Below are positions 56,024 to 62,755 of a DNA stretch of 64,000 bases, piece after piece. Each line of letters opens with the position of its first letter. Positions within the stretch are counted from its first letter, which is position 1. Under the pieces are notes generated by a model, which was not told the origin of the DNA, made no database searches, and was given only the letters and a program-made list of their open reading frames with translations. The translations under genes were made by a program, and so were the position numbers. This stretch comes from Methanosarcina acetivorans C2A (GTDB taxonomy: Archaea; Halobacteriota; Methanosarcinia; Methanosarcinales; Methanosarcinaceae), in the NCBI RefSeq assembly GCF_000007345.1, contig NC_003552.1:3348001-3412000 (forward strand), given 5' to 3'.

Positions 56024-57268
56024 TCACGTACTCTCTTTTTCTTCATTTCTCGCAATTACGTATATTTCACTCATTATTTTGATCCTTTCATCAACTGAGA
56101 ACATCTCAGTCTCACCTATCTTTCTCTTTTGAATTTCTCCCTTTTTATATCCAGTTTCATCTTCATACATCTCCTCTTTTGTAATCAGATGCCAGATAAT
56201 TGTTGCAATTTTTCTTGCTAGGGCAATAATCGCCTTTGAATGTCCAATCGACTTCTTTTTTCTGTTGAAAAACTCTTTTAACCTGCTATTTTTCGTTCTT
56301 GCTGCTGCCTGGGCAATCTGTGTTAGGATCCACCTTGCTTCCTTAGATCCTCTCTTAGTGATTCTACCGTTATGGTATTTATCCGCTGATTGGTACACCT
56401 TCGGAACTAGGCCAAGCCATGAAGCAAGCTTATCTCCTGAAGAAAAATCTTTGAAATCGCCTATTTCAGCAATAAGAGTTGCTGCTCCAAGTTCTCCTAT
56501 TCCTGGAACAGACATTAAAATTTCCATTTCTTGCTTATGATTTTTATAAGCATAATTGAAAATTTCTTTTTCCAAAATTTTGATTTCATTGTCAAGATGC
56601 TTTATGATATCCAGACAGATTTGAAGCCTGAATGCAGTATCTTGAGAGATTTCTCTGTCCAGAATTTCCCTTATCTGATTACTTTTCTTACGAACATTTG
56701 GAGAAAGGTTTGCAATAATCTGGTCAACGCTTTTACCTGAACAAATTCCTGATAGAATTGCTCTACCACTCTTACCAAAACTATCTGTTAGCACATTCTT
56801 CAGACTAAACATCTCAGGTGCGAGTATGGCGTGAGCTTCATTTTTTATATCTGTTCTTTTTTGTACAAGGTTATGGCGAAGCCGAATACATGAACGAAAT
56901 GTTCTATGGTTTTTTGGGAAAACTCTTGATGGTTGAACCATATTATTCAATGCAAGTTGTGCGATGAATTCGGAATCGATCTTATCTGTTTTTTTGTGTG
57001 TAAACGCCTTCATATCTCGGGCATTTCCAACTATAACAGGTAGATGTTTTATCAACGCATCATAAATCGGAACCCAAAAGTCACTCGTTGATTCACAGGC
57101 AACAACGTCACAGTTCTCTGAGATAACCCAGTTTTTAAAAGCTAATATTTCGTCAGGGGTTCTATAGAAATGTTGTTGCTGTTTTTCACCAGATCTACTG
57201 AGGATTGTAGCAATGAAAAAGAGTTTGTGAATGTCTAAACCACAAGCTTTGTTTATAACCTCAACCAA
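56024..57268 (-). CDS. IS110-family transposase
   Basis: An intact 414-aa bridge-RNA-guided recombinase. The N-terminal DEDD RuvC-like domain shows GLDIHK (first Asp), ACESTSDFW (Glu) and KKTDKIDSEFIA (two Asp). The C-terminal Transposase_20 domain shows PGIGELGAATLIAEIGD and the catalytic serine region QSADKYHNGRITKRGS. Length and order are standard. The last ~35 residues are a charged tail. In the IS110 group the guide RNA lies upstream of this gene. Confidence 0.92.
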   Translation of the reverse strand: MVEVINKACGLDIHKLFFIATILSRSGEKQQQHFYRTPDEILAFKNWVISENCDVVACESTSDFWVPIYDALIKHLPVIVGNARDMKAFTHKKTDKIDSEFIAQLALNNMVQPSRVFPKNHRTFRSCIRLRHNLVQKRTDIKNEAHAILAPEMFSLKNVLTDSFGKSGRAILSGICSGKSVDQIIANLSPNVRKKSNQIREILDREISQDTAFRLQICLDIIKHLDNEIKILEKEIFNYAYKNHKQEMEILMSVPGIGELGAATLIAEIGDFKDFSSGDKLASWLGLVPKVYQSADKYHNGRITKRGSKEARWILTQIAQAAARTKNSRLKEFFNRKKKSIGHSKAIIALARKIATIIWHLITKEEMYEDETGYKKGEIQKRKIGETEMFSVDERIKIMSEIYVIARNEEKEST

Positions 57269-57591: not shown

Positions 57592-58389
57592 CTATTTGGT
57601 AGCTGTGCCTTTAAAGAAGGTGTAACAAAACGTACCTTCCTGTCCAGCTGCCCGGTAAAGGTCATTAATACCTTTAGTCCACGTTTTTTCGTCGATCATC
57701 TTTAGTTCCAGTGCCTGTTCCCTGACACCTTCGACCATTGCATTGAAAGTGTTTTTCGTGAATCCTTCCACCAGGTCGGGCTTGCTCGAGTCGACGTACA
57801 CCATTCTTGGGGATATACTCACGCTTTTAAAACCGGCTCGATTCAATAGCGGATAGAGTTCCCGACCTATGAGGGAATTACCCCCCAAAAGTTCCTGGAT
57901 GTTGATCAGGCACTTTATTGTTTGCATGGCTTCATCGCTCCTGGGGTAAAAATAGCTTGAGCCGTGATCTCCCTCTATGACAGTTATCGTGCCCTCTTTT
58001 TTGAGTACTTTTTTCACCGACAATAAAGCATCCAGAGGGTTTTTAAGGTGTTCGAGTACAAAACATATGAAAACATGGTCAAAAGTCTCTTCTTCAAAGG
58101 GCAAATCGAAGATATCCGCCACCTGAAAGCTGACATTCGTCACTCCTTCTTTTTCAGTCAGCAATCTGGCTTTTTCGACCGATTCTCCGGAAATATCGAT
58201 GGATGTGATGCTGGCTTTGGGGCTATTCCTTGCCAGTATGACCGTCTGTGCGCCCACACCACAGCCGGCTTCAAGCACTCTGCTTCCAGAAGGATATATA
58301 GTATCATGATGCAGGAGCATAGTCAAAGTACTCGCCTGATCACAGAGCCGAGAATTTTCCCTATCCGAATATCCGTGTACGTAATCCAT
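57592..58389 (-). CDS. Class I SAM-dependent methyltransferase
   Basis: A 265-aa methyltransferase. Motif I is VLEAGCGVGAQTVILA, then SITSIDISGESVEKAR and DIFDLPFEEETFDHVFICFVLEHL. The C-terminal part is helical with a possible substrate cap (MVYVDSSKPDLVEGFTKNTF). The ATG at 58389 has GGTGGAT five bases ahead and is preferred over the TTG at 58401. A putative terpene synthase gene lies ~500 bases upstream on the same strand, separated by a MITE, so a terpenoid or lipid substrate is possible, but the domain alone does not say. Confidence 0.85.
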   Translation of the reverse strand: MDYVHGYSDRENSRLCDQASTLTMLLHHDTIYPSGSRVLEAGCGVGAQTVILARNSPKASITSIDISGESVEKARLLTEKEGVTNVSFQVADIFDLPFEEETFDHVFICFVLEHLKNPLDALLSVKKVLKKEGTITVIEGDHGSSYFYPRSDEAMQTIKCLINIQELLGGNSLIGRELYPLLNRAGFKSVSISPRMVYVDSSKPDLVEGFTKNTFNAMVEGVREQALELKMIDEKTWTKGINDLYRAAGQEGTFCYTFFKGTATK

Positions 58390-58491
58390 TTTATCCACCA
58401 ATTGCCATTAGATCATTGCTTTGCTGGTGCTAAATATGTTCCTTAATGTACCTGTGCGTACAAAAATTTAGTGGAAATACAGCTGTAACAA

Positions 58492-58926: not shown

Positions 58927-59886
58927 TTAGTTCATGGCATCGGTCTGCCAATATAGGTTCACATAGTTGTTGACAAACTTAGAAGTATCAAAACTCTTTA
59001 TCTCGGAATTCTCCGCGAATTCCTTCATTGACAATATGGCCTTGTCTAGTTCATTTTCTATCATTTCTGATACGGGTGATAGTTTCTCTTTCAGATTTTC
59101 TGCGCTTGCCCTCTCGAAATCGCTGAACTTGATAAGCTTCTTTTCAAGAGCTAATGAAATTACTGGACAGCTATAATCTCTCTCGGTTATTTCTCTTGTC
59201 CATGTATTAATCGTATTACTCAGCATTGCTACGATATCCGCCTGTTTGAAAAGGACTATCGCTTTTCCAAGCTCAGAGGTGTCAAAATTTTTGGAAGACA
59301 TCAGGTCGAGCAGGGAATGGGTCTCGATCATTGTGGAGGCAGCCCTGCTACGTACAACATGAGAGAATGGGTATACAATTTTATTCTTGTTCAAAAGATA
59401 GGAAAACTCCATTGATTCAGCAACGTTACGCATTGCTAGGAGAAATTCACCTCTAAAGTCACAGTATCTCGGAAGCGACGCTATTTGATTTTTAATTAAG
59501 TCTGAATAAATCTCAACAGTAGTTTTTATATACATGTTATTAGTTAAATGGGCATCTAATAATATATAATCTCCAGATTCAATTTTATCCGTATTGTACA
59601 GCATGCTTAGAATCTCATAGCTGAATTTATCTCCACCGTTTTTTTCTCTTAGAAGCGCATAATCGCATGAATCGTCAACAGCTACACCGATCATGGCCAG
59701 ACATGTCTTGAGGTCGGTTAGTCTGGAAACTAGAGATGGATCCACACAAGAAAGGTACAGACATCTATAACTGTTATATAACCAGTCGAAGAGAGCTGGC
59801 TTTCTGAGAGGGCTTGCAACATTTCTGAAGTTTAAAAAGTATTTTTCCCACAAAGTTTTATATTCGTTTATTATCACAGTTATCAC
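58927..59886 (-). CDS. Putative class I terpene synthase
   Basis: A 319-aa all-helical protein. It has an aspartate-rich motif DDSCD (71-75) and an NSE triad N224-T228-E232 in NTINTWTRE, both in canonical form and ~150 residues apart. Arginines R179/R181 in HVVRSRAAS lie ~45 residues before the NSE motif, where class I synthases keep the diphosphate sensor. Length (~320 aa) and helical content suit bacterial-type terpene cyclases; the C-terminal Arg-Tyr pair is not evident. The start is GTG at 59886, or GTG at 59877 with better AGGTGAT placement. Substrate and product are unknown. A helical prenyl-transfer relative is the alternative. Confidence 0.7.
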   Translation of the reverse strand: MITVIINEYKTLWEKYFLNFRNVASPLRKPALFDWLYNSYRCLYLSCVDPSLVSRLTDLKTCLAMIGVAVDDSCDYALLREKNGGDKFSYEILSMLYNTDKIESGDYILLDAHLTNNMYIKTTVEIYSDLIKNQIASLPRYCDFRGEFLLAMRNVAESMEFSYLLNKNKIVYPFSHVVRSRAASTMIETHSLLDLMSSKNFDTSELGKAIVLFKQADIVAMLSNTINTWTREITERDYSCPVISLALEKKLIKFSDFERASAENLKEKLSPVSEMIENELDKAILSMKEFAENSEIKSFDTSKFVNNYVNLYWQTDAMN

Positions 59887-60137: not shown

Positions 60138-61625
60138 CTATGAATCTTTGAACAGTATATTATATTTCGTCCCCGGCCCATTTCCAATTTCGATACTACC
60201 ACCGATTTGATCCACAAGAGTGTTTACAAGTTGTAAGCCTAGCGAACTGATATTTTTAAAGTCAAAGGATCCCGGAAAACCAATTCCGTTATCTCCAACA
60301 GTCAACCTAAAATAACTGCTGGGTCCGACGTTATTTTGCATACTAAAGTCAGCAGTAGTATTGCTTGATTTTTTATCGTCAAGAGCTTGAAGTTCAATGT
60401 GAATTTCCCCGTTTCTTCCATCTGGAAATGCATATTTTAAGGAGTTTGAAACCAGTTCATTGACAATGATACCCAAAGGGATTGCGTTGTCCATTTCAAA
60501 AAAGAAATCCTCCACATCCAAGTAAAGTTTGATATCGGAATTTCCTACTTTGTATGACTTGAAGAGATCATCTGTTAATTTTTTAAGATAAGATGCGAAG
60601 TTAATTGTTTCCATGTCTCTGGAGTTATACAATTCCTCGTGAATGACAGACATCGATATGATTCTATTGTGGCTTTCTCGAAATGCTTCAGCAATTTTTT
60701 TGTGATCGGGAGTCCCGGAAAGCAGGCTGTCGCATTCTAAGTCCAGGAGGCTGGAGATTACCTGCAGGTTGTTTTTTATTCTGTGGTGGATTTCTTTTTT
60801 GCGGAGTTTTTCAGCTCTGTCAAGCGATTCCGTTGCAATTTTTCTTTCGGTAATATCCTGGATAAAGCCCTGATAAAGTCTACTTGTCTGATCTATACTG
60901 TGTATAACTTGAATAGATTCAAAAACCCATACTCTATTCCCGTTCCGGTTTCGCATTCTGTATTCTTGCTCAACTAGATAGTTTGATGCAGTACTCAATT
61001 TTCTTCGATTTTCAAAAAAATTGCTCCGATCTTCAGGATCCACAAGTTGAGCCAACTGGATTTTTCCGGAAAAAAAATCTTTATCTTCGTAGCCAGTAAT
61101 TTCCTTTACGGCCCCGTGCAGCAGCACAAAATCAAAGTTGTCATCCAGCTGGAATCCAATCCCTCTGAAATTCTGCAAATATCTGAGGAGATTTTCTTCG
61201 CTTATCTTGAGTTTTTCCTGGTTATGCTCTCTTTCTGTGATATTTTTAAGCAAACCGATGGCTCTATATACATGATTATTTTCATTTTTTAGGAAAACAC
61301 AGCTGCATTCCACATAAATATAAGTTCTATTCTTTCTTTCGAGTCTGAATTTCTGCTCAAACTTCTCTCCAGTCTTCAGAGAATTCATAAGAGTGTTCCA
61401 GAACATTTCTTGTTCTTCGGGATGAATTAAACTCTTACTGGCTTCCAGATCGACTTTACCAAATTTCTCTGGCGTATAACCAGTAAATTCCTCAATAGCT
61501 CCATACCATTCAATTTTGCCAGTCTTTGGATCACCATCGAAAATTAGTTGTCCTGTTTGCTCAGCTATAGAGAAAAACCTTTCCGCAATTTTCTCTAAAT
61601 TTTCTTTATGATAATCCTTTTCCAT
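60138..61625 (-). CDS. PAS-domain sensor histidine kinase (HisKA_2/HWE-like type)
   Basis: About 495 aa, soluble. Two PAS domains (about residues 10-135 and 145-265 from this start; IEWYGAIEEFTGYTPEKFGK and ITGYEDKDFFSGK), each followed by a PAC-type NITERE/DITERK end. Then a HisKA_2 phosphoacceptor EIHHRIKNNLQVISSLL and a HATPase domain with VNELVSNSLKYAF (N box) and VGDNGIGFP (G1). No membrane segment, so a cytoplasmic signal or redox/ligand sensor. A TTG at 61682 would add 19 residues; the ATG at 61625 is preferred. No response regulator is adjacent. Confidence 0.9.
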   Translation of the reverse strand: MEKDYHKENLEKIAERFFSIAEQTGQLIFDGDPKTGKIEWYGAIEEFTGYTPEKFGKVDLEASKSLIHPEEQEMFWNTLMNSLKTGEKFEQKFRLERKNRTYIYVECSCVFLKNENNHVYRAIGLLKNITEREHNQEKLKISEENLLRYLQNFRGIGFQLDDNFDFVLLHGAVKEITGYEDKDFFSGKIQLAQLVDPEDRSNFFENRRKLSTASNYLVEQEYRMRNRNGNRVWVFESIQVIHSIDQTSRLYQGFIQDITERKIATESLDRAEKLRKKEIHHRIKNNLQVISSLLDLECDSLLSGTPDHKKIAEAFRESHNRIISMSVIHEELYNSRDMETINFASYLKKLTDDLFKSYKVGNSDIKLYLDVEDFFFEMDNAIPLGIIVNELVSNSLKYAFPDGRNGEIHIELQALDDKKSSNTTADFSMQNNVGPSSYFRLTVGDNGIGFPGSFDFKNISSLGLQLVNTLVDQIGGSIEIGNGPGTKYNILFKDS

Positions 61626-61737
61626 GATTATTTCTCTGTTCAATTCTAACTTTTTTCCATACCTATTTTCAAATGAACTCAACTATTTGTGGACATAAGA
61701 TACTACTGGTTATAATATGTACATTATTTGATTTATT

Positions 61738-62477
61738 GGTATTGTTAATTAAATATAGATAACTCTTTATTTCTGTTTTTCATCAATAGAAGAACAGAGT
61801 ACTTTAGCATTTCAAGACTCTTCGTATAACACTTTGTCTTTCGTCTCAACCTTGCCAGAAAGTGCCTTAGTATGCCGTTATATCCTTCAACTGTATACGT
61901 TTCTGCTTTGGATTGAGTATGAATGGTTTCAGGAATAAACTCTGCATATGCCCTCCAGTGATCAGTCATCACTTCTCCAATCTCTTTCTTCTTTAATTTT
62001 TCCCAGAGTAGTTGTCCAGTTTTCGTTCCTCTGCTACCAAAAGAGCAGTTGATGAATTTTTTCCCAACTCTATCAACAGCAATCCAGATCCAGCAATATT
62101 TTTTTTGTTGCCGATGTAAGTGTGCATCTCATCCAGTTCAACAATAGATATCTCATTTTCGCTTTTTAGCTCCTCTATCTCCTGACCAAATTTCTTTATC
62201 CATTTTTGGACAGAAACATGACTTACCCCTAAAAATCGTCCTATTGAACGAAATCCTAATCCCTCAAGATAAAGTTGCAAAGCCTGTCTCTTAACTAAAG
62301 GAGAACTAGCAGTTGATTTTAGCTCGACTGAATAGTTATATCCACAATCGTGGCATTTGTAGCGTTGACGTCCACAAACTATACCGTTTTTTGTGTGATT
62401 GGAACTTTTGCATCTTGGGCAGTTCATGCAGAAATATAGGTTTTCATAATATATAACTATAATTAAATACCAATACC
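61738..62477. mobile_element. IS1-family insertion sequence
   Basis: A 740-bp element. The left end GGTATTGTTAATTAAATATAG (61738-61758) matches the reverse complement of the right end at about 17 of 21 positions. Size and gene content fit IS1. A clear 8-9-bp target duplication was not seen. Confidence 0.65.
61745..62427 (-). pseudogene. IS1-family transposase in two frames
   Basis: The first frame starts at ATG 62427 (MNCPRCKSSNHTKNGI) and has the IS1 zinc finger and HTH (RSIGRFLGVSHVSVQKWI), then ELDEMHTYIGNKKN. Reading must then shift by -1 near the A8 run (62099-62106 on the plus strand) to give YCWIWIAVDRVGKKF and the rest, ending at 61745 (TVEGYNGILRHFLARLRRKT). With the shift all DDE parts are present. 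It is either a one-base deletion or translational slippage, which IS1 elements are known to use, though at another place. Confidence 0.7.
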
Positions 62478-62482
62478 GATCC

Positions 62483-62755
62483 TTATTTAGTTGATCTTGC
62501 TCTCGAGTATATAATATACAATCTGTCAATACGATACCATACAACATCATATGAAAATCTAGCATAAGAGAAAGGATAATTCACCCAAAAAACCACTTTC
62601 TTGAGACGCGATAGATCTCTATAACCTTCTATCCGCATGGATTCGCTTAAAAATCCTTCCCAAATAAAAGATTTTTTCATATGTTCCCATCGCCTGAATA
62701 TATGGGCTATTATGAGAAAAAAGGTACAAACGATTGCGAATTGTTTTTTTGTCAT
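62483..62755 (-). CDS. Small protein with N-terminal hydrophobic segment, possibly truncated by IS1
   Basis: A 90-aa frame starting MTKKQFAIVCTFFLIIAHIF with a good GGGGTG four bases before the ATG. The N-terminal segment may be a membrane anchor; the rest is rich in aromatic and basic residues. It ends six bases before the IS1 end, so the original gene may have been longer. No family recognised. Confidence 0.45.
   Translation of the reverse strand: MTKKQFAIVCTFFLIIAHIFRRWEHMKKSFIWEGFLSESMRIEGYRDLSRLKKVVFWVNYPFSYARFSYDVVWYRIDRLYIIYSRARSTK

Follow-up and report, generated by a model that had tools for sequence, protein, structure and literature searches.

The window analysed here is a stretch of 64,000 nucleotides from the genome of Methanosarcina acetivorans C2A. 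An open reading frame predicted to encode a class I terpene synthase homologue occupies positions 58927..59886 on the minus strand. It starts with GTG at 59886, its stop codon ends at 58927, and the product is a protein of 319 amino acids; the preliminary description of this DNA had placed a protein of about 320 residues at exactly these coordinates. Upstream on the same strand, domain assignment with Pfam identified a PAS-PAS-HisKA_2-HATPase sensor histidine kinase (60138..61682), and 525 bp downstream, again on the minus strand, lies a class I SAM-dependent methyltransferase (57592..58401). Inspection by eye also showed transposase-like ORFs at 56024-57268 and 61993-62565, flanking the stretch that holds the three genes.

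In class I terpene synthases, an Asp-rich motif is followed about 150 residues later by the NSE/DTE triad, (N/D)xxx(S/T)xxxE, and the form NxxxTxxxE is typical of these enzymes. An Asp-rich metal motif, DDSCD (residues 71-75; 59662..59676, minus strand), was recognized by reading the sequence, in a 32-row alignment of relatives and by hhalign. The putative NSE-type metal triad N224-T228-E232 lies within NTINTWTRE (residues 224-232; 59191..59217, minus strand), for which the family form is NWxxTWERE. Between them is Arg179-Ser-Arg181 (59344..59352, minus strand), earlier put forward as the candidate diphosphate-sensing arginines. All three elements are at the residue numbers originally reported. 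Among 32 aligned relatives with 16-78% identity, D71, D72, N224, W229, E232 and D237 are invariant and position 228 is either T or S; the Asp-rich motif of the haloarchaeal relatives reads DDxxE or DDxxD. Comparison between the Methanosarcinaceae copies gave dN/dS values of 0.13-0.32, indicating purifying selection on the synthase gene. With residues invariant over such a range of identity and a low dN/dS, the open reading frame and its motifs are beyond chance.

The outcome of profile searches, which had been proposed as a check on the terpene synthase assignment, depended on the query. The window protein alone had zero matches in Pfam, NCBIfam or PDB sequences, and a search of its own genome with the PF19086 profile gave no match, as in the control genomes. 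Through the relatives, the assignment gained good support. Haloarchaeal plasmid relatives share 22-26% identity with the window protein, with E values down to 8e-19 and 95% of the protein covered. PF19086 (Terpene_syn_C_2) was matched in the Pfam search by 23 of the 32 aligned family members (best E 2.6e-8), and a Natrinema relative exceeds the Pfam cut-off for it. The 32-row family alignment was then compared by hhalign with a canonical set of ten bacterial synthases, assembled from epi-isozizaene synthase and plasmid relatives; the epi-isozizaene synthase query agreed with PDB 3kb9 along its entire length. The two alignments matched over 219 columns at E 1.3e-4 and about 16% identity. D71/D72 paired with DDxxD, N224 paired with the Asn that opens the NSE triad, and NTINTWTRE lined up with the epi-isozizaene synthase sequence NDLCSLPKE. 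Conservation in homologues is seen for both metal motifs, which are kept in the 32-row alignment and in register with the canonical synthases.

Neither the single window protein nor the Methanosarcina-type rows alone (E 0.45) could be linked to the canonical synthases by hhalign, and family membership of the Methanosarcina protein therefore rests on its haloarchaeal relatives. An AlphaFold prediction of the window protein, for which the input was three sequences only, had a pLDDT of 38, too low for a usable model. Prenyl-elongating synthases and enzymes of the squalene/phytoene synthase type have the superfamily fold and an Asp-rich motif in common with terpene synthases, and the gene could in principle encode one of these. 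Such an assignment is highly improbable: no match to the squalene/phytoene or polyprenyl synthase families was obtained for the window protein or for any of the 32 members (0/32, against 23/32 for PF19086), the control hhalign of the family against polyprenyl synthetases gave no profile match (E 0.71), and the NxxxTxxxE triad is of the kind typical of class I terpene synthases. Haloarchaeal homology and motif conservation together give the class I terpene synthase reading good support, and the gene is predicted, with fairly high confidence, to encode a divergent member of this class.

The basic residues did not follow the metal motifs. Arg179 is replaced by Gln in the six other aligned Methanosarcina-type copies, and position 181 is R or K solely in the Methanosarcina-type copies, being mostly Asp elsewhere in the 32-row alignment. 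The suggestion that Arg179 and Arg181 fall at the places expected for a cyclase is consequently weaker than proposed, as neither is a feature of the family. A conserved counterpart of R194 and R338, both invariant in the canonical set, was sought in the family alignment and none was found; neither the Arg that acts as diphosphate sensor some 46 residues ahead of the triad nor the C-terminal RY pair is a property of the family. Because these features are usual, though not universal, in class I terpene synthases, their absence weakens class membership but does not exclude it.

The archaeal family resembles the bacterial PF19086 synthases, as represented by epi-isozizaene synthase (PDB 3kb9), in length, in DDxxD/E, in an NSE-type triad and in the spacing of the motifs. 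It differs from them in that the triad begins with NW or NT/NA and not ND, an invariant Trp (W229) follows the triad Thr, identity in the profile alignment is about 16% and neither the sensor Arg nor the RY pair is kept. A P450 or prenyl synthase gene was not seen beside the window synthase, and the locus holds no obvious tailoring cluster. FPP and GGPP are both made for archaeal lipids, and for that reason one or the other is our guess for the substrate. If the protein works as its family does, a cluster of three Mg2+ ions would be held by D71/D72, together with D75, and by the N224-T228-E232 triad. This cluster would abstract diphosphate from the linear prenyl diphosphate, FPP or GGPP, and the resulting carbocation would be cyclised or quenched to yield a terpene. 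For the Methanosarcina protein, catalytic activity, substrate and product are predictions. That class I enzymes use a Mg2+ cluster to ionise prenyl diphosphates is established chemistry (PMC10563020), and the metal motifs suggest the same here.

Relatives of the protein are present in 15 of the 112 genomes searched in its own family, its own genome included. Of 393 genomes sampled across the phylum, 38 have one. Within the genus, 10 of the 30 other genomes have a relative, which in three of them is a broken copy; decayed synthase copies occur in G078, G100 and G087. In the class Halobacteria about a third of the genomes sampled (120/391) carry one. Wherever annotation was available the relatives are called hypothetical protein, and none was found in the viral contigs searched. 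The statement that such enzymes are seldom reported in archaea is accordingly fair for the literature and not for genomes, given the counts in the Halobacteria class and in the protein's own family. In the tree, the branch leading to the Methanosarcina-type clade is very long. G029 belongs to another genus of Methanosarcinaceae, and its copy falls on the opposite side of the tree; a history involving transfer or paralogy is thus possible. In-frame TAG codons, reflecting either pyrrolysine or decay, were noted in the Methanosarcina synthase at G087:C57:2749-3687 (L011) and in a kinase match of another genome (G086:C18:79116-80591). A degenerate relative at L092 5995-6768 (G201, f8) has lost the two metal motifs and is directly followed by a SAM methyltransferase.

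The SAM methyltransferase on the same strand, the presence of which agrees with the preliminary description, had raised the possibility that synthase and methyltransferase form a small methylated-terpenoid pathway. The two genes lie on one strand only 525 bp apart, and a Halobellus synthase copy also has a methyltransferase beside it. Adjacency is nevertheless limited to the present genome (G000) and its nearest relative (G080). Orthologs of the methyltransferase with 87-88% identity are found in G088 and G104, both of which are without the synthase, and in G077, G100 and G102 the methyltransferase is about 9 kb away from the synthase. On the strength of the two-genome adjacency and the orthologs in genomes lacking the synthase, the pathway was rejected as very unlikely; the methyltransferase is probably unrelated to the synthase.

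The conserved partner of the synthase is the upstream PAS sensor histidine kinase and not the methyltransferase. At all 12 of the other Methanosarcina-type loci, the upstream gene on the same strand corresponds to the window kinase, intact or as a remnant. Among the 31 genomes of the genus, kinase orthologs with at least 68% identity are confined to genomes that have the synthase or a remnant of it, and the sole other kinase match in the genus is 53% identical. Two synthase-bearing genomes fall short of this strict threshold, namely G075, in which the kinase is in pieces, and G100, in which both genes are truncated. The constant adjacency of kinase and synthase in the genus suggests that terpenoid production in Methanosarcina is under sensory control. 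From neighbourhood and co-occurrence alone, the kinase would either control the synthase or sense its product.

The strict pairing of synthase and kinase also allows for a protein that has kept the fold and the metal motifs and carries out no cyclisation, either as a non-catalytic partner of the kinase that senses a prenyl diphosphate or terpenoid, or as a prenyl diphosphate hydrolase. The very long branch of the Methanosarcina-type clade and the variation of the basic sensor residues across the family are in keeping with such a role. Against it, D71, D72, N224, T228 and E232 are present in every aligned Methanosarcina-type copy, and their retention is best explained by selection for metal-diphosphate chemistry. 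The loss of cyclisation is thus considered unlikely, and a terpene synthase is the reading that we prefer.

In haloarchaea, the partners of the synthase vary and are often sensory; they include an FilR1-type HTH regulator, which at some loci overlaps or abuts the stop codon of the synthase, a PAS kinase, a PAS-GAF-BAT-HTH_10 activator and a HalOD1 gene. At 21 of 40 haloarchaeal loci the synthase has a gene of the kinase, BAT, FilR1-type or HalOD1 kind no more than 300 bp away, compared with 4 of 40 control stretches from other parts of synthase-bearing genomes. When the three loci from which reference proteins had been taken were removed, the ratio was 18/37 versus 4/40 (Fisher p = 3e-4), a value that is too favourable, since the loci share phylogenetic history and loci of this kind were the source of the reference proteins. 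At L084 5419-6954 (G429:C2), a receiver domain (E 8e-17), a HalX domain (E 7.6e-7) and the synthase are in a single open frame. This is the one receiver-HalX-synthase fusion found, though a stop codon may have been lost through sequencing error. A second receiver-synthase fusion was not present among the matches listed for the 170 genomes of G429's family, where the relatives match the synthase part alone, and the long open frames L137-L142 gave no match when checked for a receiver domain.

At a group of loci, mostly of f22 (L021, L069, L070, L072, L075, L080, L083, L085, L138, L140 and L141), the regulator is replaced by a divergent metallo-beta-lactamase gene, often together with a cystathionine gamma-synthase gene. 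The f25 copies, as at L087 7151-9121 (G329), adjoin a PHP-associated-domain gene and an FAD-dependent, possibly geranylgeranyl-reductase-like gene. Relatives of another kind were observed on Halocatena/Actinarchaeum plasmids (L097 5494-7878 and L103 5509-7856); these are terpene synthase relatives annotated as SRPBCC family or hypothetical. They are haloarchaeal proteins found with the epi-isozizaene synthase query and not with the window protein as query, and unlike the window gene, their genes directly precede a polyprenyl synthetase gene.

A literature search on archaeal class I synthases yielded nothing beyond the citation of a preprint by Samusevich et al., which by its title deals with archaeal terpenoid biosynthesis (bioRxiv 10.1101/2024.01.29.577750; cited in PMC12797696). 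Judged by that title alone, terpenoid biosynthesis in archaea is what their system and the present one have in common.

The findings add to this methanogen a candidate terpene synthase overlooked by standard annotation, and they describe a synthase family that is widespread in archaea, has had no name there and is linked to sensory regulators. As a tentative proposal, which we hold as possible and not as the likelier case, the archaeal family may be part of sensory modules, in which sensor kinases, and in one instance a receiver domain within the synthase polypeptide, would turn terpene production on or off, or a terpenoid would be sensed by PAS and FilR1-type regulators; the terpenoids themselves would then be signals or regulated stress metabolites. 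Methanosarcina acetivorans is genetically tractable. With one kinase-synthase pair, the role of archaeal terpenoids becomes testable.
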